Source of the DNA: a virus
Length of the DNA: 23,384 nt
Virus record (IMG/VR): IMGVR_UViG_3300048056_000085
Location: 1-23,384 of that record
Direction: 5' to 3' (one strand)
Shown: positions 2,497-23,384 of the stretch, piece after piece
How positions within the stretch are numbered: the first letter of the stretch is position 1
How the letters are laid out: each line of letters begins with the position of its first letter
Position numbers and translations under genes: made by a program
Notes under the pieces: generated by a model
Told to the model about the DNA's origin: nothing
Seen by the model: only the letters and a program-made list of their open reading frames with translations
Database searches by the model: none

Positions 2497-3561
2497 ATGC
2501 CCGCTGCCATCACTGAGTTTGTCGACGTCGACGTTCTGCTTCAGGGTCCACCCGCGGAGCGGTTTGAGTTTGGCGCGCTGATGGGCGCCTTTGCCCACAC
2601 GGTCAGCGCCAACCGCCAAGAGGGTCCGTTTTCCTCGCTCGCGGACCTCGAGGGTGCCGGCTTCACGGTATTCACAGCGCCGGAGGTGAACGCCTGGGCG
2701 TCTGCCGTGTTTGCCCAGCAAGCCGGCGTTGAGAACGTGATCGTGGGCCTCATCGACCCGCTCGACGCCGACCTGACCGCGTCGCTCGACGCCATTGAGG
2801 CGGCCGACCCGACGTCGTTCTACCTGGTCAACGTCGACACTCGGCTCGACGCGGACATCCTGCTGCTGGCTGCGTGGACGGAGTCGCGAGAGAAGATCGC
2901 GATCGCCCAGACCTCCAGTGCTGACCTCCTGGCTGGCACGGTCGGGAACATCGGCTTGCTGCTGCAGGCGGCCAGCTACAACCGAACGGCGCTGATCTAC
3001 CACGACGACGACACCGAATATTTGGACGGCGGCTGGTCCAGCATCATCGGCGGATTCAACCTGGATGGCCCGGCCGGGGTGGGCACGGCGTTCGGCAAAA
3101 CCGTTGCCGGCGTGCCGTTCGACGCCGTGTCGAGCACGGAGGCCGACAACATCTACAGCGCCAACGCCAACCTCTACGGGCGCAACCTCGGCCTGTCCTT
3201 CACGAGCAAGGGCACGATGGCCAGCGGACGGTTTATCGACGTGCAGACCTCGCTGGACTGGGTCAAGACCCGGCTTGAGGAGGACCTTCTGACGCTGCTC
3301 ACCAGCACGCCGACCAAGATCCCCTACACCGACGCCGGGATCGCCCTGTGCGGCAACTCGGCGCAGGCTGTGCTTGAGCGTGGCGTCACTGCCGGTCACT
3401 TCACTGACGATGGGCCACTCGGGCCGCCGAGTGTCACGCTGCCGCTGCGGCGAAACATCGCCAACGCCAAGATCCAGGCTCGAGAGCTGGAGTTTCAGGC
3501 CCAGGCCACGCTGGCCGGCGCGATCCAAAAGGTTGAGCTTACCCTCTCCGTGAGCTTCTAG
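2497..3561 (+). CDS. Tail sheath protein (DUF3383 family)
   Basis: A 354-aa protein with the character of the DUF3383 sheath family: a short N-terminal beta region, a central segment including YNRTALIYHDDD (from about residue 162), and a C-terminal region with LERGV and NIANAKIQARELEFQ. It would polymerise around the tail tube and contract to drive the tube through the host envelope. A good Shine-Dalgarno (GGAGAG, 2488-2493) precedes the ATG. The tube gene follows after 9 nt, the normal sheath-tube order. At about 350 residues it is a compact, single-domain type of sheath, as in simple short-genome myoviruses. Confidence 0.85.
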   Translation: MPAAITEFVDVDVLLQGPPAERFEFGALMGAFAHTVSANRQEGPFSSLADLEGAGFTVFTAPEVNAWASAVFAQQAGVENVIVGLIDPLDADLTASLDAIEAADPTSFYLVNVDTRLDADILLLAAWTESREKIAIAQTSSADLLAGTVGNIGLLLQAASYNRTALIYHDDDTEYLDGGWSSIIGGFNLDGPAGVGTAFGKTVAGVPFDAVSSTEADNIYSANANLYGRNLGLSFTSKGTMASGRFIDVQTSLDWVKTRLEEDLLTLLTSTPTKIPYTDAGIALCGNSAQAVLERGVTAGHFTDDGPLGPPSVTLPLRRNIANAKIQARELEFQAQATLAGAIQKVELTLSVSF

Positions 3562-4046: not shown

Positions 4047-4457
4047 ATGGGCATAGTACGCGAGCACACGACCGAGATCGACGGTCTCACCTACCACTGC
4101 ACCACGTTCACGGCGTCTGAGGGCCTGACGCTGTTGCCTGCGCTGATCCGCCTGTTCGGTAAGCGGGTGATCCAGCTCGCCATGCAAAGCGGCGACAACC
4201 TGCCGCACATGCTTGAGCAACCAGAGGTGCTGGCCGCGATCGTCACGGAGGCCGCCAGGGAGGCGGCCGGGGACGACGAGGGCTGGCTGGTGCTGCGCCG
4301 GCTGGTCAGCAAGACCACGTGCGACCAGACGCAGATCGGCGACGCCCAGGTCAAGGCGTCGGTCGCCGAGCACTTCGACACCCACTTCACCGGCCGCCTG
4401 ATGCACTTGATCAAGGTGTCGGTGTGGGTGGCGACGCAGTCTTTCGCGGGGCCCTAG
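4047..4457 (+). CDS. Tail assembly chaperone, short form
   Basis: A 136-aa mostly helical acidic protein between the tube and tape-measure genes, the invariant position of phage tail assembly chaperones (lambda gpG-like). These bind the tape measure and recruit tube subunits and are not part of the virion. An AGGGTG lies close upstream of the ATG. The reading frame ends in GGG CCC TAG (4449-4457). A second, overlapping frame in the -1 register stays open through this point, so a longer frameshifted product is likely. I recognise no specific family; the call rests on position, length and the overlapping downstream frame. Confidence 0.7.
   Translation: MGIVREHTTEIDGLTYHCTTFTASEGLTLLPALIRLFGKRVIQLAMQSGDNLPHMLEQPEVLAAIVTEAAREAAGDDEGWLVLRRLVSKTTCDQTQIGDAQVKASVAEHFDTHFTGRLMHLIKVSVWVATQSFAGP
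4448..4454 (+). promoter_or_regulatory. Candidate -1 ribosomal frameshift site GGGGCCC
   Basis: Zero-frame codons are GGG CCC TAG. Slipping back one base re-pairs the P-site glycine tRNA perfectly (GGG to GGG), whereas the A-site tRNA would pair only partly (CCC to GCC). The -1 frame then continues A-L-V-R-E-P into the downstream domain. It is not the classical X XXY YYZ heptamer, so efficiency is uncertain. I did not identify a clear downstream pseudoknot by eye. Confidence 0.4.
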
Positions 4458-4723
4458 TGCGAGAGCCACTCGACAGGTGGCACCCGTACACGCGGGCGAG
4501 CGGACCGCGACAGGGCATAGGGCCGCGCAACGTAGACTGGAGGCTGTACCGGGCCTGCGATACGGGCCAGGGTGGCGTCGACGTGGCCGCCTATCAGGCG
4601 CTGCACACCACGATCGACCTCGAGGGCCTGTTCGACTTGATCGAGATGCGGGAATGCATGGACTCCTGGGCACACGCTGAGATGCACAACGCTGACCACC
4701 GAGCCAAGCAGGGGGGCTACTGA
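4457..4723 (+). CDS. Tail assembly chaperone C-terminal extension (-1 frame; gpGT-like)
   Basis: This frame is in the -1 register relative to the upstream chaperone and is already open before the upstream stop. The segment from 4457 encodes about 88 residues, including WRLYRACDTGQGG and DLIEMRECMDSW, the kind of short helical domain fused by frameshifting to phage chaperones (it resembles DUF6889-type sequences, tentatively). It can be expressed by -1 slippage at the GGGG run (4448-4451), or by reinitiation at the GTG at 4457, which overlaps the upstream TAG. I favour frameshifting from family precedent (lambda G/GT) but cannot exclude reinitiation. Its stop overlaps the tape-measure ATG by one base (TGATG, 4721-4725). 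Confidence 0.6.
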   Translation: MREPLDRWHPYTRASGPRQGIGPRNVDWRLYRACDTGQGGVDVAAYQALHTTIDLEGLFDLIEMRECMDSWAHAEMHNADHRAKQGGY

Positions 4724-7579: not shown

Positions 7580-7610
7580 AAAAAAAAACCGCCCCGAAGG
7601 GCGGCTTTTT
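7580..7610. terminator. Bidirectional Rho-independent terminator
   Basis: A 6-bp perfect GC stem (CCGCCC 7589-7594 / GGGCGG 7599-7604) with a 4-nt loop, flanked by A9 on the left (7580-7588) and a T5 run on the right (7606-7610). Read on the minus strand it is CCGCCC-TTCG-GGGCGG followed by nine T: a UUCG tetraloop with a long U tract, an excellent terminator for the reverse gene. On the plus strand it is followed by CTTTTT and could also stop or thin late transcription. Confidence 0.85.
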
Positions 7611-11921: not shown

Positions 11922-13241
11922 ATGCCAACCAAACCCGCAGGCGTTTACAGCGTAGCCACCGACCTGAACTATTCGTCGGGTGTCGCTACGGGATTCCCGA
12001 CCAAGAGCGCGACCGTCTCGGCGACCGAGGGGTTTTTCCCTGACACCGCGATTGCGGCCGAGGAGCAAAACTACCTGTGGAACTTGACGGGCGAGTGGAC
12101 CTCGTGGCTTTTCGCCGGAACGTCGCTGCCCGTCATCGACACCACGATCGTAGAGCGTGACGCGCTGGGGCGGTCGCAGTTCGCGATCGTGCAGGCCGGC
12201 AACACTGCGTCGCCAAGCATCCCCGTGATCGTGGACGGCAACGCCGGCCAGCCTGCCGGTGACCCGGCGGTCGCGATCAACAGCAACACCGGGTCCGCGG
12301 CCTCAGCGACATCGGCCAGTTCCGACCCCACGATGTCAGCGACCAACGGGTCGGACGGGATCGGCGTGCTGGCCATCACGTCTGCTGGCCCAGCCGGGGT
12401 GCAGGGGCAGTCTGCCACGGCCGCGCCGTCGGTGGGGGTTGAGGGCGTGTCTCGAGGCCCCGCGTCGATCGGCGTGCTTGGACGCGGAGACGCGACCCTC
12501 GGAGCCCTTCCAGGTGTCGCCGGTGTCGCCCTGGCTGACAACGGGATCGGAGTGTACGGGCAGGTATCGGCCACAGCCGGCATCACGGCTGCCGGCGTGC
12601 AGGGCGACGCAACCCTTTCTTCCGACGCGGTGGGCGTGTGGGGCCTGGCTGCCGGGGGCTATGGCGTGCAGGCTCAGTCCGACCAGACCGCACCGCAGCG
12701 GGCCGCCCTGCGCCTCGTTCCGCAGGACACGGACCCCGTAATCGCGGGCGAGGGCGACACGTACCACAACCTGACGGGCTATCGCCGCATCTTCGCCGAC
12801 TCGCTCTGGCGAAGCGTGACAACGCAGCCGGGCAACACTGTACGGGCCTTTGAGGTCACGCCGGGCCCGGTGGCTATCCCGCTGGTGCCCACGCTGGTCG
12901 TTTCGGCGACGCTGGGCCTCAACAACCAGCCCCTGGTTGGCGGTGAACTGGAGATCTACGTCGAGCTGCAGCCGGCGTGGGGCACCAGTTCGCTCTCGGC
13001 GATCTCCGGCCTCACTGTGACGCTGCGTGACACGACCGCAGCGGTGGACGTGTGGTCCCAGGTGCTCTCGACGCCGGCCGCTCCGGCAGCGGGCGTGGTC
13101 GCGCGCACCTTCGCTCGGACGGTTCGGTACACGCTGCCTGGCACTGGACCGCGCGGCTTTGAGGTGCTTGTCGAGCGCACGACCGGGGCGGACAACGCCG
13201 AGATCTTCGACGCGGTTCTCAAGATCGACGGGGTCTACTAG
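11922..13241 (+). CDS. Probable tail fibre / receptor-binding protein with GVxG repeats
   Basis: A 439-aa protein in the fibre position after the baseplate genes, with an AAGGA ribosome binding site. N-terminal ~75 residues (including FPDTAIAAEEQNYLWN and TGEWTSWL) look like a baseplate attachment domain seen in phage fibres. Residues about 146-253 hold a degenerate repeat in which GV followed by a small or aromatic residue and G recurs (GVLA, GVQG, GVEG, GVLG, GVAG, GVYG, GVQG, GVWG), typical of trimeric beta-prism or beta-helical shafts. The last ~130 residues form a beta-rich globular domain, the likely receptor-binding tip. No chaperone gene follows; terminase comes next, sharing a base (TAGTG at 13239-13243). 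Confidence 0.7.
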   Translation: MPTKPAGVYSVATDLNYSSGVATGFPTKSATVSATEGFFPDTAIAAEEQNYLWNLTGEWTSWLFAGTSLPVIDTTIVERDALGRSQFAIVQAGNTASPSIPVIVDGNAGQPAGDPAVAINSNTGSAASATSASSDPTMSATNGSDGIGVLAITSAGPAGVQGQSATAAPSVGVEGVSRGPASIGVLGRGDATLGALPGVAGVALADNGIGVYGQVSATAGITAAGVQGDATLSSDAVGVWGLAAGGYGVQAQSDQTAPQRAALRLVPQDTDPVIAGEGDTYHNLTGYRRIFADSLWRSVTTQPGNTVRAFEVTPGPVAIPLVPTLVVSATLGLNNQPLVGGELEIYVELQPAWGTSSLSAISGLTVTLRDTTAAVDVWSQVLSTPAAPAAGVVARTFARTVRYTLPGTGPRGFEVLVERTTGADNAEIFDAVLKIDGVY

Positions 13242-13738
13242 TGGCTGACGAACCTGCCCAGATCGAGGCCCTGTGGTCCGCTTGTGACAACCAGCCGATC
13301 GGCCGAGGTCACGTCAAGCTGACTCGGGGCTTTATCGCTGAGTTCTGCAAGCAGGTTCGCCGCGGAAACTTTCTGCGCGTCGCCGCCAATCGGCTCGGCG
13401 TGAGCGAGCAAACGTGCTGGCAGTGGCGCTCAGATGGGCGCCGTGAGCTTGCCGAGTACGAGGCTGGCAAGCGGGAAACCGTGTCGCTGCGCGTGCTTTT
13501 TCTGGTCGAGGGTGACCGGGCGTCCAGCGACCTACACGACCGCCTTATCGTGGACGTGCTCTCCAGCGATGACGCCAAGCTCAAGTTTGAGTTCATGCGT
13601 CGGAGGTGGGGCAAGATCTACAGCGCCAACCCGAACGCCACCGAGGACCCAGAGACCGGCGAGGAGCACACGATCGACGCCGTGTCCCTCCTGCTTGAGC
13701 GCATCGAGGCGCTAAAAGGTGATGGCTCGGCTACCTGA
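13241..13738 (+). CDS. Terminase small subunit
   Basis: A 165-aa protein with a GTG start overlapping the fibre stop. Residues about 44-66 form a helix-turn-helix (FLRVAANRLGVSEQTCWQW), the DNA-recognition element of small terminases. Helical oligomerisation segments follow, including RLIVDVLSSDDAKLKFEFM. It recognises the packaging site and stimulates the large subunit. The 3' end overlaps the large-subunit gene by about 17-20 bases. The HTH plus position directly before an unambiguous large terminase makes the call firm despite low family conservation. A cos or pac site could lie in or near this gene, but I see none. Confidence 0.85.
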   Translation: MADEPAQIEALWSACDNQPIGRGHVKLTRGFIAEFCKQVRRGNFLRVAANRLGVSEQTCWQWRSDGRRELAEYEAGKRETVSLRVLFLVEGDRASSDLHDRLIVDVLSSDDAKLKFEFMRRRWGKIYSANPNATEDPETGEEHTIDAVSLLLERIEALKGDGSAT

Positions 13739-15035
13739 CATTGCGCAGCACCTGGGCTCGCTGACGCCTCCGCAGGTCCGCGCCCTGATTGGGTCGCTGT
13801 CGCACCAAGAGGCGATGGCGATCCTGTCGGACTGGTCGCAATGGTCGCTCCCGTACCAGCGTCTACCCGAGGGTGACTGGCGTCGGTGGGTGCTACGTGC
13901 CGGGCGCGGCACGGGCAAGACGTACACGGGTGCGCGGACTGTGGTCGAGGTGGCGCGCGACCGATCCAAGATCCGCACGGGGGAGATCGGGCTAATCGGC
14001 CGCACCTACCACGACGTTCGGTTCACGATGGTCGAGGGGCCCAGCGGCATCCTCCACGCAGCGCCGCACGACTTCCGGCCCACGTGGGAGCCGGGCAACG
14101 GCGTGTTGACGTTTCCAAACGGCGTGCGCGCTAGGGCCTACTCGGCAGATCGCCCTGAGTCGATCCGCGGGCCGAACTTCGCCTGGGTCTGGGGCGACGA
14201 GGTGTCGCACTGGCCCGACCTTGATCGCACGTGGTGGGAGGTCGTGGAGCCGGCGTTGCGGATCGGGTGGGCGCGGGCGATGCTCACGACCACCCCGCTA
14301 CCCGATGAGGCTCTCAGCAAGATTGAGAAAATGTCCGACACCGTGGTTACCAGGGCGGCCACGTTCGATAATCCCTACTTGTCTCAGGCGATCCGCAACG
14401 CCCTGAAGGAGCGGTTTGAGGGCACGCGGATCGGTCGCCAGGAGCTTTATGGGGAGATCCTTGAGCAGACTGCTGGCGCCCTGTGGACCTCGGCCATGAT
14501 CGAGGATCATCGGGTCGATCGGGCCCCGCGGAACCTTGCGCGCGTCGTCGTCGCCGTAGACCCCGCCGTGACGGCCAACGCAGACAGCGACGAGACGGGG
14601 ATCGTCGTGGCAGGGCTGGGCGTCGATCGCCAGGTGTACGTGCTGGCTGATAGGTCGATGCGCGGGGCCCCTCACGAGTGGGCCAGCGCGGCCGTAAGCG
14701 CATATTACCGCTTCGGTGCGTCGCGCATCGTGGCCGAGGTTAACAACGGAGGGGATATGGTCGAGAGCACGATCCGCGCCGTTGACGACCGGGTGGCTTA
14801 CCGCTCCGTGAGGGCGACTCGAGGCAAAGTGTTGCGCGCTGAGCCCGTCGCGGCCCTGTACGAGCGCGGCAAGGTGCACCACGTGCGGGGCCTCGGCGAC
14901 CTTGAGGCTCAGCTCACGACGTGGAGCCCGATCAACGCGAAGGGGAGCCCTGACCGACTTGACGCCCTTGTTTGGGCTATCACCGATCTTGTTCTGTCTG
15001 AGAAAGAGGCAGGGCCCCTGCAAGGATACCTATGA
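13722..15035 (+). CDS. Terminase large subunit (ATPase and nuclease)
   Basis: A 437-aa packaging motor. Walker A lies at residues about 60-67 (AGRGTGKT) and Walker B at about 154-160 (AWVWGDE). The RNase H-like nuclease follows, with the first acidic residue at D280 (VVVAVDPAV), further acids near D288/D290, and a late SPDRLDAL motif (409-416) carrying the last acids. It translocates DNA into the head and cuts concatemers. Start: ATG 13722 is preceded by GTG 13719 in frame; the products differ by one residue, and ATG is preferred. Its TGA overlaps the ATG of the portal fusion (ATGA, 15032-15035). Confidence 0.95.
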   Translation: MARLPDIAQHLGSLTPPQVRALIGSLSHQEAMAILSDWSQWSLPYQRLPEGDWRRWVLRAGRGTGKTYTGARTVVEVARDRSKIRTGEIGLIGRTYHDVRFTMVEGPSGILHAAPHDFRPTWEPGNGVLTFPNGVRARAYSADRPESIRGPNFAWVWGDEVSHWPDLDRTWWEVVEPALRIGWARAMLTTTPLPDEALSKIEKMSDTVVTRAATFDNPYLSQAIRNALKERFEGTRIGRQELYGEILEQTAGALWTSAMIEDHRVDRAPRNLARVVVAVDPAVTANADSDETGIVVAGLGVDRQVYVLADRSMRGAPHEWASAAVSAYYRFGASRIVAEVNNGGDMVESTIRAVDDRVAYRSVRATRGKVLRAEPVAALYERGKVHHVRGLGDLEAQLTTWSPINAKGSPDRLDALVWAITDLVLSEKEAGPLQGYL

Positions 15036-17437
15036 GCGACACGCCCAAGATCCCGCGAACCGACGACTTTCTCAACGCCGTATCCGGTCTCGGCGGGAGC
15101 TACGACAAAAGCCAGTACACGTTTTTCCGTCGCCGCCCTTACCTGCAATACGACGAGCTAAGCGACCTGTACGAGCAGGACGCGATTGCCGCGCGAGTCA
15201 TTGACCGGCTGGTGGACGACGCCACCCGCGAGGGCTTCAGGATCGTCGGGCCCGACGAAGATTTCGACTTCGACGCGGTGTCCTCCGACCTGGAGGATCT
15301 TGGGGCAATTACGGCCATCGGCGATGCCTGGCGATGGGCTCGTCTTTACGGGGGTGCCATCGCAGTTATGGTGGTGGCAGACGGTCGCAAGCTCAGCGAG
15401 CCGCTCGACGTGCAGCAGGCACAGCGCCTGCTGTCGGTCCAGGTGATCGAGGCGCCCTATGCCATCCCGTCTGACTGGAACCCAGGTCTAGGCGCTCGAG
15501 GCTTCCGCGACCCTCGGCGATACGATGTGACCGTCGTCGCTGGGCGCGGGGATACGCGGTCGATCGACGCCTCCCGCGTCATGCGCTTTGACGGCATCCG
15601 CGTGCCGCCGTCGCGCCTGCTGGAGCGGTACGGGTGGGGCCCCTCGTTGCTGGACCGGGTCGCACGGGAGATCTTCCAGCTCGGCGAGGTGATGGGCTAC
15701 TCGCGCAACATCATCCACGAGATGAGCGTGATGGCGTTCAAGATCGAGGGTTTGCGCGAGCAGCTCTGCGGCGACGAGCGTTCGCAGTCCGAGATCCGCA
15801 AGGTCTTTGAGACGCTTCGGTTTGCGATCGACAACATGAACGCGCTCGTGCTCGACACGAAAGACGACTACGGCGAGATCAGCCGATCGACCAACGGACT
15901 GCGCGACATGATCGAGGAGTTCGTGTCAGCTCTGGTCCGGGCCACGGACATGCCCCGCACCGTGCTCCTCGGTGAGCAGCCCAGCGGGCTCAACGCCAAC
16001 GCGGACAGCGAGATCAGGTCATGGTTTGACTACGTCCACAGCCAACAGCGCGCCGTGCTTACGCCGGCTGTCAACCGACTTCTTGAGGTGTACTTCGCGG
16101 TGCGGTCAAACAGGGGCGACCGTGTACCGTCCGAGTGGACGATCGAATGGAACCCGCTGTGGCAGATGGACGAGCAGCAGGCGGCCCAGGCTCGCCTCAC
16201 GCGGGCCCAGGCGCGCGCCATCGACGTCAACAGCGGCGCGGTGTCGGCCGACGAGGTGCGCCAAGACCCAGACCTTCGAGATGTCTACGAGATCGACCCG
16301 TCGGCAGCGGCTCCCCCTCCACCCATGCCAGCCCCGGCCAGTGGAGTCGCCCTTCTCGGACAGGACGAGGAGGACGCTGACAGGGAGCCCGTGGTGCTGC
16401 CTGACAGCTACATTAGGCCGGGATCAACGATGGTCGGCACGCGACAGGCTGCGGAGGCCCTTGGGGTTTCGCAAGCCACCGTGCGACGACTGGCACGCGA
16501 GGGGCAGATCCCCGCGACGATGGTAGGTTCGCGTATGCGGATCCCGCTTGAGCAAGCACGCGAGACGTTGCAGCCGATCACTGGCGATTCGGTCAAAAAA
16601 AAAACGGACCTAGCGCCGACTGACCACGACGTGCTTTCCACGCTCTTGCGGGCCGAGGTGGCATACACCCGCGATCTCGCCAAGATCGCCCGTGACCTGC
16701 GGAGGGCGATCGCGTCTCGCGTTGGACGGCGCATTGAGCAGCTTGCTGCCGAGGGGCCAAGGGCGGTCGAGGTGGCTGTGAGGCAAGCGATCCGTGAGTC
16801 GGGTGCAGTCCTGCCGGACGCGCAGATCCGAAGAATCATCCGCGACCAGTGGGCGCGGGTGCGGACGGCATCCGATGACACGGTAGTGCTCATGGTGGGG
16901 TCGGCGAGCAGCATTGACCGCGATCGGCTCCTGGCCCTGGCCGGCGGTAGGCCAGAGGACCCGGAGAATCCGACCCGCGACGAGCAGATCGGGGCCGTGC
17001 TGGCGGCTGCGCTGGCCGTCGCTGGCGACCGAGCTAGGCGGGAGTGGGCTCGAGCCAACACGGAGCTGATCCGCGACATTCCTGCCAAGCACGAGCAGGA
17101 TCTAGTGCTGGCGCTGACAGAGGCGGTCGAGCAGGGCAAGGGCGCCGACCGACTGCGCGAGATCATCACCGAGCGCGACGGGATCACAGAGCGGCGCACG
17201 CAGACGATCGCCGAGGACCAGACCCAAAAGGGAGTCGGACAGCTCCAGCAGGAACGCCTGGGCGGCGCTGGCGTCGGTCAGTACACGTGGCGCACCATGA
17301 TGGACGACCGCGTCAGAGACGAGCACGCGGCCCGTGAGGGCCAGGTTTTTGCTTGGGACCAGCCGCCAGAGGACGGGCACCCTGGCGAGCCGGTGAACTG
17401 CCGATGCGTCGCCGAGCCTGTGTTAGAGCTAGAATGA
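15032..17437 (+). CDS. Portal (DUF1073 type) - HTH - Mu F/SPP1 gp7-like head morphogenesis fusion
   Basis: An 801-aa fusion. Residues 1-~420 are a DUF1073-type portal (this Pfam family is also named after the Acb1 N-terminal domain). Visible motifs are LSDLYEQDAIAARVIDRLVD, the WRWARLYGGA segment and DMPRTVLLGEQPSGLNANADS. Residues 467-513 are a clear excisionase-like (HTH_17/MerR-type) helix-turn-helix: TRQAAEALGVSQATVRRLA followed by a basic wing IPATMVGSRMRIPLE. Three lysines (522-524) coded by an A10 tract follow. The C-terminal part is helical and ends in a Mu F-type domain (YTWRTMMDDRVRDEH from 751, H783-P-G and CRC at 790-792). Portal plus MuF fusions are known; an HTH between them is unusual. 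Slippage at A10 would release the portal-HTH alone. Confidence 0.9.
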   Translation: MSDTPKIPRTDDFLNAVSGLGGSYDKSQYTFFRRRPYLQYDELSDLYEQDAIAARVIDRLVDDATREGFRIVGPDEDFDFDAVSSDLEDLGAITAIGDAWRWARLYGGAIAVMVVADGRKLSEPLDVQQAQRLLSVQVIEAPYAIPSDWNPGLGARGFRDPRRYDVTVVAGRGDTRSIDASRVMRFDGIRVPPSRLLERYGWGPSLLDRVAREIFQLGEVMGYSRNIIHEMSVMAFKIEGLREQLCGDERSQSEIRKVFETLRFAIDNMNALVLDTKDDYGEISRSTNGLRDMIEEFVSALVRATDMPRTVLLGEQPSGLNANADSEIRSWFDYVHSQQRAVLTPAVNRLLEVYFAVRSNRGDRVPSEWTIEWNPLWQMDEQQAAQARLTRAQARAIDVNSGAVSADEVRQDPDLRDVYEIDPSAAAPPPPMPAPASGVALLGQDEEDADREPVVLPDSYIRPGSTMVGTRQAAEALGVSQATVRRLAREGQIPATMVGSRMRIPLEQARETLQPITGDSVKKKTDLAPTDHDVLSTLLRAEVAYTRDLAKIARDLRRAIASRVGRRIEQLAAEGPRAVEVAVRQAIRESGAVLPDAQIRRIIRDQWARVRTASDDTVVLMVGSASSIDRDRLLALAGGRPEDPENPTRDEQIGAVLAAALAVAGDRARREWARANTELIRDIPAKHEQDLVLALTEAVEQGKGADRLREIITERDGITERRTQTIAEDQTQKGVGQLQQERLGGAGVGQYTWRTMMDDRVRDEHAAREGQVFAWDQPPEDGHPGEPVNCRCVAEPVLELE
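16595..16604 (+). promoter_or_regulatory. A10 homopolymer, candidate programmed slippage site
   Basis: Ten consecutive A lie inside the portal fusion gene, in zero frame AAA AAA AAA A, exactly at the border between the HTH domain and the MuF-like half. Losing one A gives KKKRT then TAG; gaining one gives KKKNGPSAD then TGA. Both shifted frames therefore stop within a few codons and would yield a ~526-530-residue portal-HTH without the MuF domain. A run this long is rare in such GC-rich coding sequence. A sequencing error cannot be excluded from one read of the sequence. Confidence 0.5.
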
Positions 17438-17462: not shown

Positions 17463-17813
17463 ATGGCACTGATCCGACAGACACAGATCGCCGGCCAGCC
17501 GTTTAGCGGCGCGGCCAACGACGGGCTGTTTGACCCAAACGGACTTCGGCCCGTGAGTCGGTCGCTGCAGATCCGCGTCAACTCCGTGGGCTTCTCGACC
17601 ACGTCAACGGTGGGTGTGGAGCTGGTGCGGGTTTCGCCCGAGGGGGACGAGGTGGTGCTGTTCCGCGGAACGTCGGCGAACCTCTACGTCCAGGGGCTAG
17701 TGTTGCCGACCAGCGATGACGGGCGCTATTACACGCTACAGCTCCGGTCGCTGGCCCTTCCGGGGCCTGGCGTCGTGACCTTCGACTACGACGCGATCGG
17801 CACGGAGCAGTAA
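17463..17813 (+). CDS. Unknown late protein, 116 aa, beta-rich
   Basis: The ATG has a good GGAGAG ribosome binding site 6 nt upstream and starts 25 bp after the portal fusion stop, one of the few real gaps in the late cluster. The product alternates hydrophobic and polar residues throughout (SLQIRVNSVGF, TVGVELVRVSPEGDEVVLF, YYTLQLRSL, VVTFDYDAIG), suggesting an all-beta sandwich like small decoration or fibre-accessory proteins. No family is recognised. GTG of the fibre-like gene follows one base after its stop, so the two are coupled and may act together on the virion surface. Confidence 0.75.
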   Translation: MALIRQTQIAGQPFSGAANDGLFDPNGLRPVSRSLQIRVNSVGFSTTSTVGVELVRVSPEGDEVVLFRGTSANLYVQGLVLPTSDDGRYYTLQLRSLALPGPGVVTFDYDAIGTEQ

Positions 17814-17814
17814 G

Positions 17815-19122
17815 GTGGGCGCGCGCGATTTTCTTGTGCCCGTCTTTGCGACCTTCGACGGCGTCGTCTCGCTGCCAGTGGGCCAGTCGGCGGGCGATGG
17901 CGACGGCGACGGTGATGGCGACGGTGACACGCCAGTCGTCGCGTCCGTGGACCCGGCCGCCGTCGCCCCGGTGGCCCCGCTGTTCAACACCTTTGCGGAT
18001 GCGTGGGCGTACCTGGCCGGCTTCGAGGGCTTCCGCGTCCTGACCCTACTGGACGACGTGGCGGTCACTCCGGGGACCTACTCCGGGGGCCGTGGCCTGC
18101 GGATCGCTGGCGATATCTCCCGCGATACCACTCTGACGGTGCCCGAGGGCGTCGTCTTTGAGGGCTTGCGGCAACTGACCGACCGCGTCAAGGTCGTGTT
18201 CACTGGCACCACCCCGCCCGTGTCGGACTTCACCGGAGACGCCATCGCCGGTCAGCCGGACATCTTCTATCTGGAGAAGGGCTGCGCGGTGGACTGCACT
18301 GGCGCTGGCCCCTTCTTCCGAATTGCTGGCGACGGCACGCCTCAGTCTGCCTTTGGCGGGCTTGCGCTCAACTTTACGCAGGATATCGGGGGAGCGTCCA
18401 CCACCCCGGTGTTTGAGGCGACCGCTGGAGCCTTCGGCTTCTTCTTCCTTCTGGCGAACTCCTCCCTAGCGGCAGGTTCGCTCGCTTCGGACGCGGCATC
18501 CGTGATCGCGCTGCAACTCAGCGCAGATAGCAGCACGAGCCGAAACCCCGCGGACTACCCCGCGATCCTCGGCGGTTTCGTTGCGGAGCTAGGAGCGCGC
18601 GGGGACCGGGTGCTCTATGACCCGTTCGTCAACTCGACGGGGCTGATCTCCGACACTGTTCAGGGAGCGCTGGACGAGGTCGCTGAGACCGGGCTTGCGT
18701 TCGGCGGCTACCTAGACGCGAGTGTGCCGCTCGTTGTCGGCGTGCCCGTCCTCGTGAACCCAACCGTCCAGACGGCCACGTTCGACCCCGGCACGTATGT
18801 CTGGGCTCCCTCGACGGACGTGAGTATCCTGCGCGACGGCAAATATGAGATCACGTATGGCGCCGTCTACAACAACACGGGCACCGGGACGAGGTTTGTG
18901 CAGCTTGACCTGCTGGTGAGCGGGCTGGCACAGCCTGGGCTAGAGGTCACCACGAGCGTTGAGGGCAGCGGCTTTACTCCGGTCAACGGCATCACTCGCA
19001 CTACGATCCTTGACCTTGTGGGCGGCCAGTCCATCGGGATCGCTGCTACGCAACTCAACGGAGCCGCGACCGTCACAACGGTCACCAACGAGATCTTTCT
19101 CTCCATCCGAAAGGTGCGCTGA
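17815..19122 (+). CDS. Fibre-like virion protein with GD repeat and TNF/C1q-like C-terminus
   Basis: A 435-aa protein, GTG start with GGAG 7 nt upstream. Residues 27-38 are GDGDGDGDGDGD, a flexible acidic linker that also reads as overlapping DxDxDG calcium-loop motifs. The middle (about 100-260) is beta-rich, Gly/Thr-rich. The segment STGLISDTVQGALDEV (about 277-292) matches the short helix seen before trimeric fibre tips. The last ~130 residues (KYEITYGAVYNNTGTGTRFVQL and the C-terminal EIFLSIRKVR) have the jelly-roll strand pattern of TNF/C1q-like phage receptor-binding domains. I infer a second fibre or capsid-surface fibre. The C-terminal fold call is by eye. Confidence 0.65.
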   Translation: MGARDFLVPVFATFDGVVSLPVGQSAGDGDGDGDGDGDTPVVASVDPAAVAPVAPLFNTFADAWAYLAGFEGFRVLTLLDDVAVTPGTYSGGRGLRIAGDISRDTTLTVPEGVVFEGLRQLTDRVKVVFTGTTPPVSDFTGDAIAGQPDIFYLEKGCAVDCTGAGPFFRIAGDGTPQSAFGGLALNFTQDIGGASTTPVFEATAGAFGFFFLLANSSLAAGSLASDAASVIALQLSADSSTSRNPADYPAILGGFVAELGARGDRVLYDPFVNSTGLISDTVQGALDEVAETGLAFGGYLDASVPLVVGVPVLVNPTVQTATFDPGTYVWAPSTDVSILRDGKYEITYGAVYNNTGTGTRFVQLDLLVSGLAQPGLEVTTSVEGSGFTPVNGITRTTILDLVGGQSIGIAATQLNGAATVTTVTNEIFLSIRKVR

Positions 19123-19124
19123 CC

Positions 19125-20012
19125 GTGCCCGAAGAAATCATCCCACTGAGCGCGTTCCCCCTGGGCCTCCAAGACCGCGATGGGTTCGTGCGCGAACTGA
19201 ACGCGGCATACAACGGACTACTGGCAACCACCGTCCGCACGGTGTCGCTCACCGAGGTTGCCGTCGTCTACACCGGGGAACTGGCTGACATCCTCGCCGT
19301 CGCTGCGCTACACCCTCAGCCACCGAGCGCCGAGAATGACCCGCTCTCCCTCCGAATCGGCGATCACTTTTCGCCGCCTCGCCGGCTACTCGCGCCGCCC
19401 GCTGATGTGGTCTGGGACGTGTTGACGCCCAACCTGCACAAGCGGATCGGTCTGCGCGACGGTGGAGGATATGTCACCCGTTGGGATTTCATGCCCATTG
19501 TCAACGGCGTGCGCGGGGATAACGTGGTGTGCGAGCATCACACGTATTTGATCCCGTCACCCGGAGCCGCGCCTCTCAAGCGTGACGTGGAGATCGAGTG
19601 GCTACGCCGAGACGGCATCGGCCACCCGGATCGAAAGTTCATGGAAAAGTGGTACGACACCCCGGAGACGATTGCCAAAGAGGGCAAGCTCCGACGTGGC
19701 AAGCTCATGGAGGAGGCCCAGGGCCTAATCTACCAGTGGCTCCTCTCAAACGGGTACACATTTGACGACGGCAAGGATTTCGTGACCAGCTTGTCTGGGC
19801 ACGTATCGACCTACGAAGAATATTCGGATATGGGTATCCTCGCCACCGTCCAGGCATCCGACGCACAGACGTTCCCCTGGCTCGACCAAGCTGGAGCGTT
19901 CTCGGAGTCACTTGCTACTCCCGTCCGCGACGGACAACCGCTGTCCGCCAACCTCGTCACCCCAAGAGAGTTCCTGATCGGGATTCTCGACATCTACGCT
20001 ACCAGCCCGTAA
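19125..20012 (+). CDS. Unknown late protein, 295 aa
   Basis: GTG start at 19125, three bases after the previous stop, with AAGG about 11 nt upstream. A mixed alpha/beta protein without signal peptide or membrane segment. It has aromatic clusters (YVTRWDFMPIV, EHHTYLIP, EIEWLRRDG, KWYDTPE) and a helical stretch KLMEEAQGLIYQWLLSNGY. The N-terminal DRDGFVRELNAAYNGLLATTV also looks helical. I recognise no family. Its position behind the fibre-like gene suggests a virion or fibre-assembly function, but nothing in the sequence proves it. Confidence 0.7.
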   Translation: MPEEIIPLSAFPLGLQDRDGFVRELNAAYNGLLATTVRTVSLTEVAVVYTGELADILAVAALHPQPPSAENDPLSLRIGDHFSPPRRLLAPPADVVWDVLTPNLHKRIGLRDGGGYVTRWDFMPIVNGVRGDNVVCEHHTYLIPSPGAAPLKRDVEIEWLRRDGIGHPDRKFMEKWYDTPETIAKEGKLRRGKLMEEAQGLIYQWLLSNGYTFDDGKDFVTSLSGHVSTYEEYSDMGILATVQASDAQTFPWLDQAGAFSESLATPVRDGQPLSANLVTPREFLIGILDIYATSP

Positions 20013-20021
20013 GGAGACTCC

Positions 20022-20384
20022 ATGCCGCTGATCCCGACCACCCCTGAAACGCGGTCTGTCCCTGGCCCCTCCGAGCAGCGGACGCTTGACCGGATGCACT
20101 TGCTAAGCTTCAAGTTCGTGCAGGACGTCAACGCCACTGACAACGCTCACGTTGAGGTTGAATGGCGCGTGGGGTACGACCACCCGACGCTGACCGTGAC
20201 CGATGCGCTTGGCACTCGGCCGCTGTTTCAGGAAATCGAGCGCAAGCGGGCGCGTCTGTCTGGCGCTGCCGTCATGGCCGCTGTCGCGGCGACACCATCC
20301 GGCGCTTCGGTGTTTGACGCCGTAAGAAACGCCGTGTGGGCGCTCTTGATCGCCGAGGGTCACGTCGGCGGGACGGTGCAGTGA
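20022..20384 (+). CDS. Unknown late protein, 120 aa
   Basis: An AGGAG (20012-20016) merges with the upstream stop and precedes the ATG by about 5 nt, so expression should be strong. The N-terminus is Pro/Thr/Ser-rich. The middle has beta strands (HLLSFKFVQDVNATDNAHVE then VEWRVGYDHPTLTV) and the C-terminal half is helical and Ala-rich. No family recognised. The stop overlaps the GTG of the phospholipase-like gene (GTGA, 20381-20384), so those two are translated together. Function unknown. Confidence 0.75.
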   Translation: MPLIPTTPETRSVPGPSEQRTLDRMHLLSFKFVQDVNATDNAHVEVEWRVGYDHPTLTVTDALGTRPLFQEIERKRARLSGAAVMAAVAATPSGASVFDAVRNAVWALLIAEGHVGGTVQ

Positions 20385-22457: not shown

Positions 22458-22666
22458 CGGACTGGCGGCACGACCCGGAGGAACCCGAGACGTGGATCTC
22501 CACGGACGACTACGAGGGGACGCGGGGGATCGTGACGATCCGCGGCCAAGGCCACGGTGGGCAGTGGGTCGGATCCCCGGAGCAGCTCCGACTGCTGGCG
22601 GCCGAGCTGCTCGAGCTGGCGGCCGAGTGCGAGGCCCGCAGGGCCGAGGAGGCGGGGCGTGACTAG
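22454..22666 (+). CDS. 70-aa unknown acidic protein
   Basis: GTG at 22454 overlaps the previous stop (an in-frame GTG at 22451 is also possible). The N-terminal half (WISTDDYEGTRGIVTIRGQG) looks like a beta hairpin. The C-terminal half is a helix rich in Leu, Glu and Ala (EQLRLLAAELLELAAECEARRAEEAG). Small proteins of this strand-then-helix kind occur in phage early regions, but no family is recognised. It overlaps the pentapeptide-repeat gene by 8 bases and contains that gene's ribosome binding site (GAGGAGG, 22646-22652), so the three genes form one operon. Confidence 0.65.
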   Translation: MTDWRHDPEEPETWISTDDYEGTRGIVTIRGQGHGGQWVGSPEQLRLLAAELLELAAECEARRAEEAGRD

Positions 22667-23384
22667 CGTCCGAGAGCGCCTTGAGGCGCACGCTGAGGCG
22701 TGCCGGGAGGCCACCGCGGCGGGGCATAGTCGGCCGGACTGGGCCGGTGGCCACTTGCGCGATGCCGAACTGTGCCAAGCCAACCTTCGCGGCGCCAACC
22801 TGCGCGGCGCTGACCTGCGCTTCGCCAACCTACTCGGAGCCAACCTACTCGGCGTCGACCTGCGCGGCGCCAACCTGCGCGGCGCTGACCTGCGCGGCGC
22901 TGACCTGCGCGGCGCTGACCTGCGCGATGCCGACCTGTGCCAAGCCAACCTTCGCGGCGCCAACCTGCGCGGCGCCAACCTGCGCGGCGCCAGCCTGCGC
23001 TTTGCTGACCTGCGCGAAGCCGACCTGCGCGAAGCCGACCTGCGCTTCGCTGACCTGCGCGACGCTAGCCTGCGCCACGCCGACCTTGGCGACGCCAACC
23101 TGCACCGCGCCGACCTGCGCGGCGCCAACCTGCGCGGCGCCAACCTGGGCCACGCCGACCTGGGCGACGCCGACCTGGGCGGTGCCGCCGGCGCTGACGA
23201 GGTGCCGCGTGCGCCCGTGGCTGGCCTGGCCGCGGCAGTGCTGCGCCAGATCACGGAGCACCCGGAGACCTGGGACCAGGAGGTCTGGCACTCGGACTGC
23301 GGCACGGCGCACTGCTGCGCCGGATGGGCGGTGGTGCTGGCCGGGGGGGCTGGCCCCCGTGCCGAGGCGCGCCTGGGCACGGGG
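22659..23384 (+). CDS. Pentapeptide-repeat protein (3' end outside window)
   Basis: GTG at 22659 with GAGGAGG 6 nt upstream; the frame is open to the last base (242 codons seen). After a short helical N-terminus (1-33), residues 36-175 are 28 tandem pentapeptides of the A(D/N/S)LRG type, which fold as a right-handed square beta-helix of about seven turns. The only change at the first position is one Val. Beyond the repeats come APVAGLAAAVLRQI and a segment with CGTAHCCAGWAV (C214 to V225), a C-terminal motif often found after such repeats. Some pentapeptide proteins (Qnr, MfpA) mimic DNA and protect gyrase; whether this one does is not shown. Third gene of the operon under the XRE/operator control region. 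Confidence 0.9.
   Translation, partial: MTSVRERLEAHAEACREATAAGHSRPDWAGGHLRDAELCQANLRGANLRGADLRFANLLGANLLGVDLRGANLRGADLRGADLRGADLRDADLCQANLRGANLRGANLRGASLRFADLREADLREADLRFADLRDASLRHADLGDANLHRADLRGANLRGANLGHADLGDADLGGAAGADEVPRAPVAGLAAAVLRQITEHPETWDQEVWHSDCGTAHCCAGWAVVLAGGAGPRAEARLGTG

Follow-up and report, generated by a model that had tools for sequence, protein, structure and literature searches.

A phage portal protein with a predicted winged helix of the DNA-binding type as an optional C-terminal cassette

A predicted winged helix between portal and MuF domains

We analyzed an IMG/VR virus record of 23,384 bases (IMGVR_UViG_3300048056_000085; hereafter the window, meaning this whole stretch), in which a single gene encodes a portal protein, a helix-turn-helix (HTH) domain, and a MuF domain. 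The context is that of a contractile-tailed phage: the window includes a tail sheath gene (2497–3561) and, on the + strand, genes for the terminase small subunit (TerS, 13241–13738; phrog_4102 terminase small subunit, 4.1e-6) and the terminase large subunit (TerL, 13719–15035; Terminase_6N and Terminase_6C, along with PHROG TerL families), followed by the portal-HTH-MuF gene, an uninterrupted open reading frame (ORF) of 801 amino acids (15032–17437, + strand) with Pfam, PHROG, and NCBIfam matches.

An initial annotation had placed the three domains in one frame, and this was borne out by three Pfam domains above cut-off within the single ORF. The portal body (residues 1–420; 15032–16291) includes Phage_portal_3 (PF06381, formerly DUF1073) at residues 42–394 (1.2e-69, 235 bits against a gathering score of 33.8), and is followed by a linker that is first proline-rich and then acidic (residues 421–460; 16292–16411). 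The winged HTH domain itself (residues 461–513; 16412–16570) was matched by two profiles above their curated cut-offs, namely HTH_17 from Pfam (residues 470–507, 1.5e-9, 38.4 bits against 27) and TIGR01764 “excise” from NCBIfam (residues 470–508, 1.2e-10, 41.6 bits against 28.8), so that the profile search proposed earlier for this region came out positive; “excise” is a profile label here, and no functional excisionase is claimed. A second linker (residues 514–547; 16571–16672) lies between the HTH and the MuF part (residues 534–801; 16631–17434), whose Phage_Mu_F domain at 17108–17413 (PF04233, residues 693–794, 9.7e-21, above the gathering score) is also detected as TIGR01641 (residues 694–797). 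All of these segments are on the + strand, and PHROG matches for the whole protein comprise portal, head morphogenesis, excisionase, and transcriptional regulator families.

When the full protein was modeled with AlphaFold as a monomer, using an alignment of 29 sequences, residues 461–513 folded as a canonical winged helix with a predicted local distance difference test score (pLDDT) of 91–94. The elements follow the order strand-helix-helix-strand-strand-helix, with helices at 470–477, 481–489, and 506–512 and the latter two strands at 496–498 and 501–505, and the domain modeled by itself reached a mean pLDDT of 90. Both flanking linkers (435–453 and 516–547) had pLDDT < 50, i.e., the HTH is a separate unit between disordered linkers and not part of the normal portal barrel, the outcome that would have contradicted the initial annotation. 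The best Foldseek matches for the HTH domain were Pukovnik Xis (TMt 0.79) and BldC-DNA (0.76), with further matches to RdfS, RacA-DNA, MerR-type proteins, P2 Cox, and the gpNu1 DNA-binding domain. Xis, BldC, RdfS, RacA, Cox, and gpNu1 are DNA-binding proteins. E-values were weak (best 0.017), as expected for a query of only 63 residues, while probabilities of the top matches were near 1, and an independent profile search of PDB sequences also ranked BldC, Cox, and Xis among the best matches. The portal body has the fold of the solved portals of FCWL1, Pam3, T1, E217, and XM1 (Foldseek E 1e-17), which it also matches in sequence. According to these models, residues 461–513 are an autonomously folding winged helix of the DNA-binding type.

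Recurrence in an uncultivated clade

To place this architecture among its relatives, we gathered a clade by IMG/VR scans with portal alignments and compared 29 representative portals, with the loci of relatives designated by L numbers. A DNA-binding-type domain was found at the same C-terminal place in 13 of the 29 (the window, L094, L096, L104, L110, L120, L123, L124, L126, L128, L130, L182, and L184), three of which (L123, L182, and L184) were outside the seed of our local HTH model yet were recovered by it. Pfam alone detected HTH_17 at E ≤ 0.01 in 10 of the 29 portals, and the gathering score was passed by the window, L094, L120, and L124. Some of these portals are fused to MuF and some are not: in L096, L104/L106/L111, L110, and the window, portal-HTH runs into MuF in one frame (L111 being cut by the contig end), and in L094, L120, L124, and L130 the portal ends after the HTH and MuF is the next ORF. 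A scan for relatives of the MuF part returned only the L094 contig, already found. The L126 (868–3027) and L184 (3938–5758) portals also share an extra segment between portal body and HTH (SIAAVLAQVSEGTL / SLVELVQQVSSGIL).

The search for further fusions suggested by the initial annotation thus yielded many independent contigs, and these bear directly on whether an error of assembly or sequencing brought the three domains together. The window is a single metagenomic contig, and the contig of its closest relative, L002/L214 (IMGVR_UViG_3300024433_000220, portal 97% identical), stops at residue 454, just before the HTH. However, portals that are 31–72% identical, encoded on contigs of many different metagenomes, show the same architecture or portal-HTH alone, with the L094 portal at 72% identity to that of the window. 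Since so many relatives carry the HTH in independent contigs, even though some close relatives are without it, an assembly chimera is ruled out for the portal-HTH join and an error behind the whole arrangement is scarcely credible, leaving doubt only for the exact A count in the window.

The HTH is an optional cassette at the portal C terminus. This is clearest in L120 and L116, which differ by one clean cassette of ~236 bp at the HTH place: the collinearity of L120 with L115/L116, at 77% nucleotide identity, breaks off at L120:2853 / L116:5267 and resumes at L120:3090 / L116:5291, and the segment absent in L115/L116 consists of linker plus HTH only. On the portal tree, four gains or losses of the HTH are needed, at least two of which are forced by strongly supported branches. 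HTH similarity rises with portal similarity (r = 0.49), a correlation that 9 of 5000 permutations reached. The HTH of L184 is 58–60% identical to those of L110 and L120 for portals that are only 32–40% identical, which suggests that the HTH is either more constrained there than the portal or moves between portals. Scanned with the HTH model, the relatives’ loci yielded portal ORFs only, plus two weak non-portal matches (L038 and L134), and a captured neighboring gene was accordingly rejected as the source of the domain.

Other domains are found at the same end of DUF1073 portals. Instead of an HTH, the Pam3 (L005:2272–4137) and Rhodovastum (L013:2899–4818) portals carry a 2H-phosphoesterase-like tail with HVTIAYSKKPLDW / HVTVAFSRKPLDW motifs, and the portal C terminus would thus seem to be a place where domains are added. 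Long, unrelated C-terminal extensions were also seen at L032:2923–7176, L051:1234–3768, L081:2794–6405, and L087:1853–4165, the L081 extension including pentapeptide-like repeats.

Beyond the clade, 50,697 cultured phage records yielded no HTH-bearing portal, and tblastn with two HTH types gave none among the matches listed. All records returned by portal searches of cultured phages were below 60% identity, and the HTH was missing from each of the 10 portals aligned from opened records. In bacterial genomes, a first portal scan found none and a second found two portals, both HTH-less. Across 379 bacterial genomes of one phylum, portal matches stopped before the HTH (L227 being partly masked with N), and many free HTH proteins matched the HTH part of the profile.

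A homopolymer tract at the HTH/MuF junction

The HTH/MuF junction of the window contains an A10 tract (16595–16604, + strand), which is an addition to the initial annotation and which we propose as a slippage site. The corresponding junctions hold A9 in L094 and in L109/L110. Stops in the other two frames follow the tract after 4 and 8 codons in the window (TAG at 16611–16613 in +1, TGA at 16621–16623 in −1) and after 4 and 10 codons in L110. In L094, MuF is entered in the −1 frame, frame 0 meeting a stop after 14 codons. The first ATG/GTG/TTG of the L094 MuF is a GTG at 3294, located 3′ of the conserved stretch HDxLSTLLRAE; within HDxLSTLLRAEVAY, 13 of 14 residues match between L094 and the window, versus 56% over the whole MuF part. 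Because a start codon appears only after these conserved residues, the L094 MuF seems to be entered from the portal frame.

Apart from the junction tracts, relatives’ loci with GC > 50% contained no A or T run of ≥9 over 312 kb, a total that includes overlapping and near-identical contigs. Even runs of ≥8 were missing from the rest of the 20 kb inspected in the L110 contig and of the full 10.7 kb of the L094 contig. When synonymous codons were resampled, a run of this kind arose anywhere in the portal ORF in 45, 37, and 12 of 4000 draws (45 for the window). A second A9 run in the window (7580–7588) adjoins a terminator-like hairpin (7589–7604), and as the hairpin follows directly, this run probably belongs to a terminator and not to a slippage site.

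Bacterial transcription slips efficiently on ≥9 As or Ts (PMC5009743, PMC4256274), and slippage at the junction tract probably yields both portal-HTH and portal-HTH-MuF, judging from the layout of the frames. The window is arranged like Thermus thermophilus dnaX (PMC5009743), with the long product in frame and stops in both other frames, and L094 has its analog in Citrobacter rodentium tssM, with an A11 tract (PMC4256274). Both known cases share with the junction a homopolymer of ≥9 and stops close by, and both make long and short products, but neither lies at a portal/MuF boundary, where we found no slippage described. A programmed −1 ribosomal frameshift is not supported, no stimulatory RNA structure being found in the flanks of the three tracts (z-scores of −0.79 to +1.42). 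Alternatively, the tract may be a phase-variable site of replication slippage, such that genomes switch between fused and unfused MuF instead of each making both products. Such a switch would predict the different tract lengths of the window (A10, fused) and L094 (A9, MuF in the −1 frame), yet L109 and L110, from two different metagenomes, are both A9, and efficient slippage on ≥9 As would give both products anyway; we consider phase variation unlikely. This alternative concerns the junction only and overlaps the other explanations, so that confidences across them do not sum to one.

Neighboring genes

Immediately 3′ of the portal ORF (17463–20384), the tested genes at 17463, 17815, 19125, and 20022 had no Pfam or PHROG match. 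Relatives of the phiEt88 and DIBBI types have capsid genes at the matching place, and the capsid genes of this phage may lie outside the 23,384-base record. Rfam and tRNA scans of the window gave no match. Directly 5′ of a tape-measure-sized gene, two ORFs overlap in a −1 relation (4047–4457 and 4319–4723) and are a candidate tail assembly chaperone frameshift pair. A pentapeptide-repeat ORF of the A-D/N-L-R-G type (22557–23384, + strand) extends past the right end of the window and includes an array of ~27 copies of a 15-bp repeat (22779–23187).

Discussion

Within the collections and open-access papers that we searched, we found neither a report nor a record of a portal with a DNA-binding-type domain, in line with the initial annotation’s view that an HTH is unexpected there, nor any report of recoding or frameshifting between portal and MuF. 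Portal-MuF fusions are already known (PMC7302621), as are fusions of 2H, Nudix, or ART domains to portals or to MuF (PMC9503650). In Microbacterium phages of clusters EA and EB, MuF is fused to the portal in one gene as in the window, with neither an HTH nor a slippery tract reported (PMC7302621). Among PF06381/DUF1073 portals, those of Pam3 (8hds), FCWL1 (9jlf), T1 (9l01), and E217 (8fvh) resemble the portal body in sequence and fold, but none has an HTH.

In portals, the C-terminal crown is turned toward the capsid lumen and away from the terminase. The MuF minor capsid protein gp7 of SPP1 is located inside the procapsid on the portal at 1–2 copies per capsid, supports the start of infection, and is needed for efficient infection; the title of a paper on its targeting calls it DNA-binding (PMC6316719, PMC5576092). 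Unlike the MuF of the window, fused behind portal-HTH, gp7 is a separate polypeptide, for which no HTH_17-type domain is described. Given the lumen-facing crown and the gp7 precedent, the tethered winged helix is best read as an optional means of tethering DNA at the portal crown within the head, i.e., as a portal-proximal genome anchor or pilot, to which we assign a probability of about 0.48. The portal C terminus would have gained a cassette of flexible linker and winged helix, followed by MuF in the phage of the window, and the ring would hold up to 12 winged helices, along with MuF, at the portal vertex in the lumen. These would bind the portal-proximal genome, possibly with some specificity, and their grip would act as anchor or pilot, helping to retain the DNA and to start an orderly exit at ejection. 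RNA polymerase slipping on the A10 tract would then supply both portal-HTH and portal-HTH-MuF, in which case not every subunit would need MuF.

Several observations weigh against this scheme. Many clade relatives have no HTH domain, and among relatives the domain carries a net charge anywhere between −1 and +6, so that DNA binding may be weak or lost in some members. The MuF parts were modeled with lower confidence. As the window and L094 are sisters, the tracts count as two lineages and not as three independent events. In L096 and L104, portal-HTH is joined to MuF with no A tract, which indicates that any dosing of MuF is not general. We regard as rather doubtful the fullest version of the proposal, i.e., a portal class with an exchangeable winged-helix DNA clamp at the lumen crown and MuF dosed by slippage, in which short and long subunits would be combined in one ring that grips and pilots the genome end.

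The spread of charge also bears on whether the winged helix was co-opted as a protein–protein module, binding MuF, a scaffold, or an internal head protein, with DNA binding lost. Together with a mean HTH identity of only 32% among relatives, it is what such a change of function might leave behind. Yet the glycine turn, a basic wing (GSR or similar, with R/K at the wing start), and the helix pattern are kept across 11 aligned domains, and HTH_17 scores are good for the domains of the window and L094, making this co-option improbable.

The closest structural matches suggest another possibility, also raised in the initial annotation, namely that the unassembled portal is a transcription regulator, for example one that represses its own late operon until the portal is used in assembly. 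Pukovnik Xis (4j2n), BldC (6ama), RdfS (8dgl), and P2 Cox (4lhf) share with the portal HTH their fold, order of secondary structure, and HTH_17/TIGR01764 profile, but they are free small regulators or recombination factors and not tethered to a structural ring protein. BldC and RdfS oligomerize head-to-tail (PMC5859096, PMC11963761), and RdfS binds DNA without a clear consensus motif (PMC11963761). HTH_17 and BldC-type domains are typical of regulators, and feedback on portal supply would be plausible in principle, but no operator was identified, the papers searched offered no precedent, and a protein fused to MuF in an assembling ring would be an odd place for a regulator. We judge this role quite improbable.

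Recognition of the packaging site or of the terminase–DNA complex, which the winged helix would dock at the portal, was the first function suggested in the initial annotation, and it fared less well. In its favor, the HTH resembles the gpNu1 terminase DNA-binding domain in fold (1j9i, and 7lwr from work on a packaging motor), and it has a weak match to a TerS family (phrog_57, 7.9e-4). However, a separate TerS gene lies upstream of TerL in relatives with and without the HTH, including the gene at 13241–13738 in the window, from which it follows that the HTH does not replace packaging-site recognition, and its candidacy as a TerS substitute was ruled out. The HTH is also absent in relatives with the same TerS-TerL-portal order, and portal C termini point into the lumen. 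Docking of this kind is, in our estimation, very unlikely.

For most tailed phages, in our judgment, little is understood of what holds the last-packaged DNA end at the portal or of how its release begins. With a DNA-binding-type domain tethered to a natural portal, and close relatives that lack exactly that cassette, the question becomes testable. If the A tract works as proposed, recoding would set the number of portal subunits that carry MuF.

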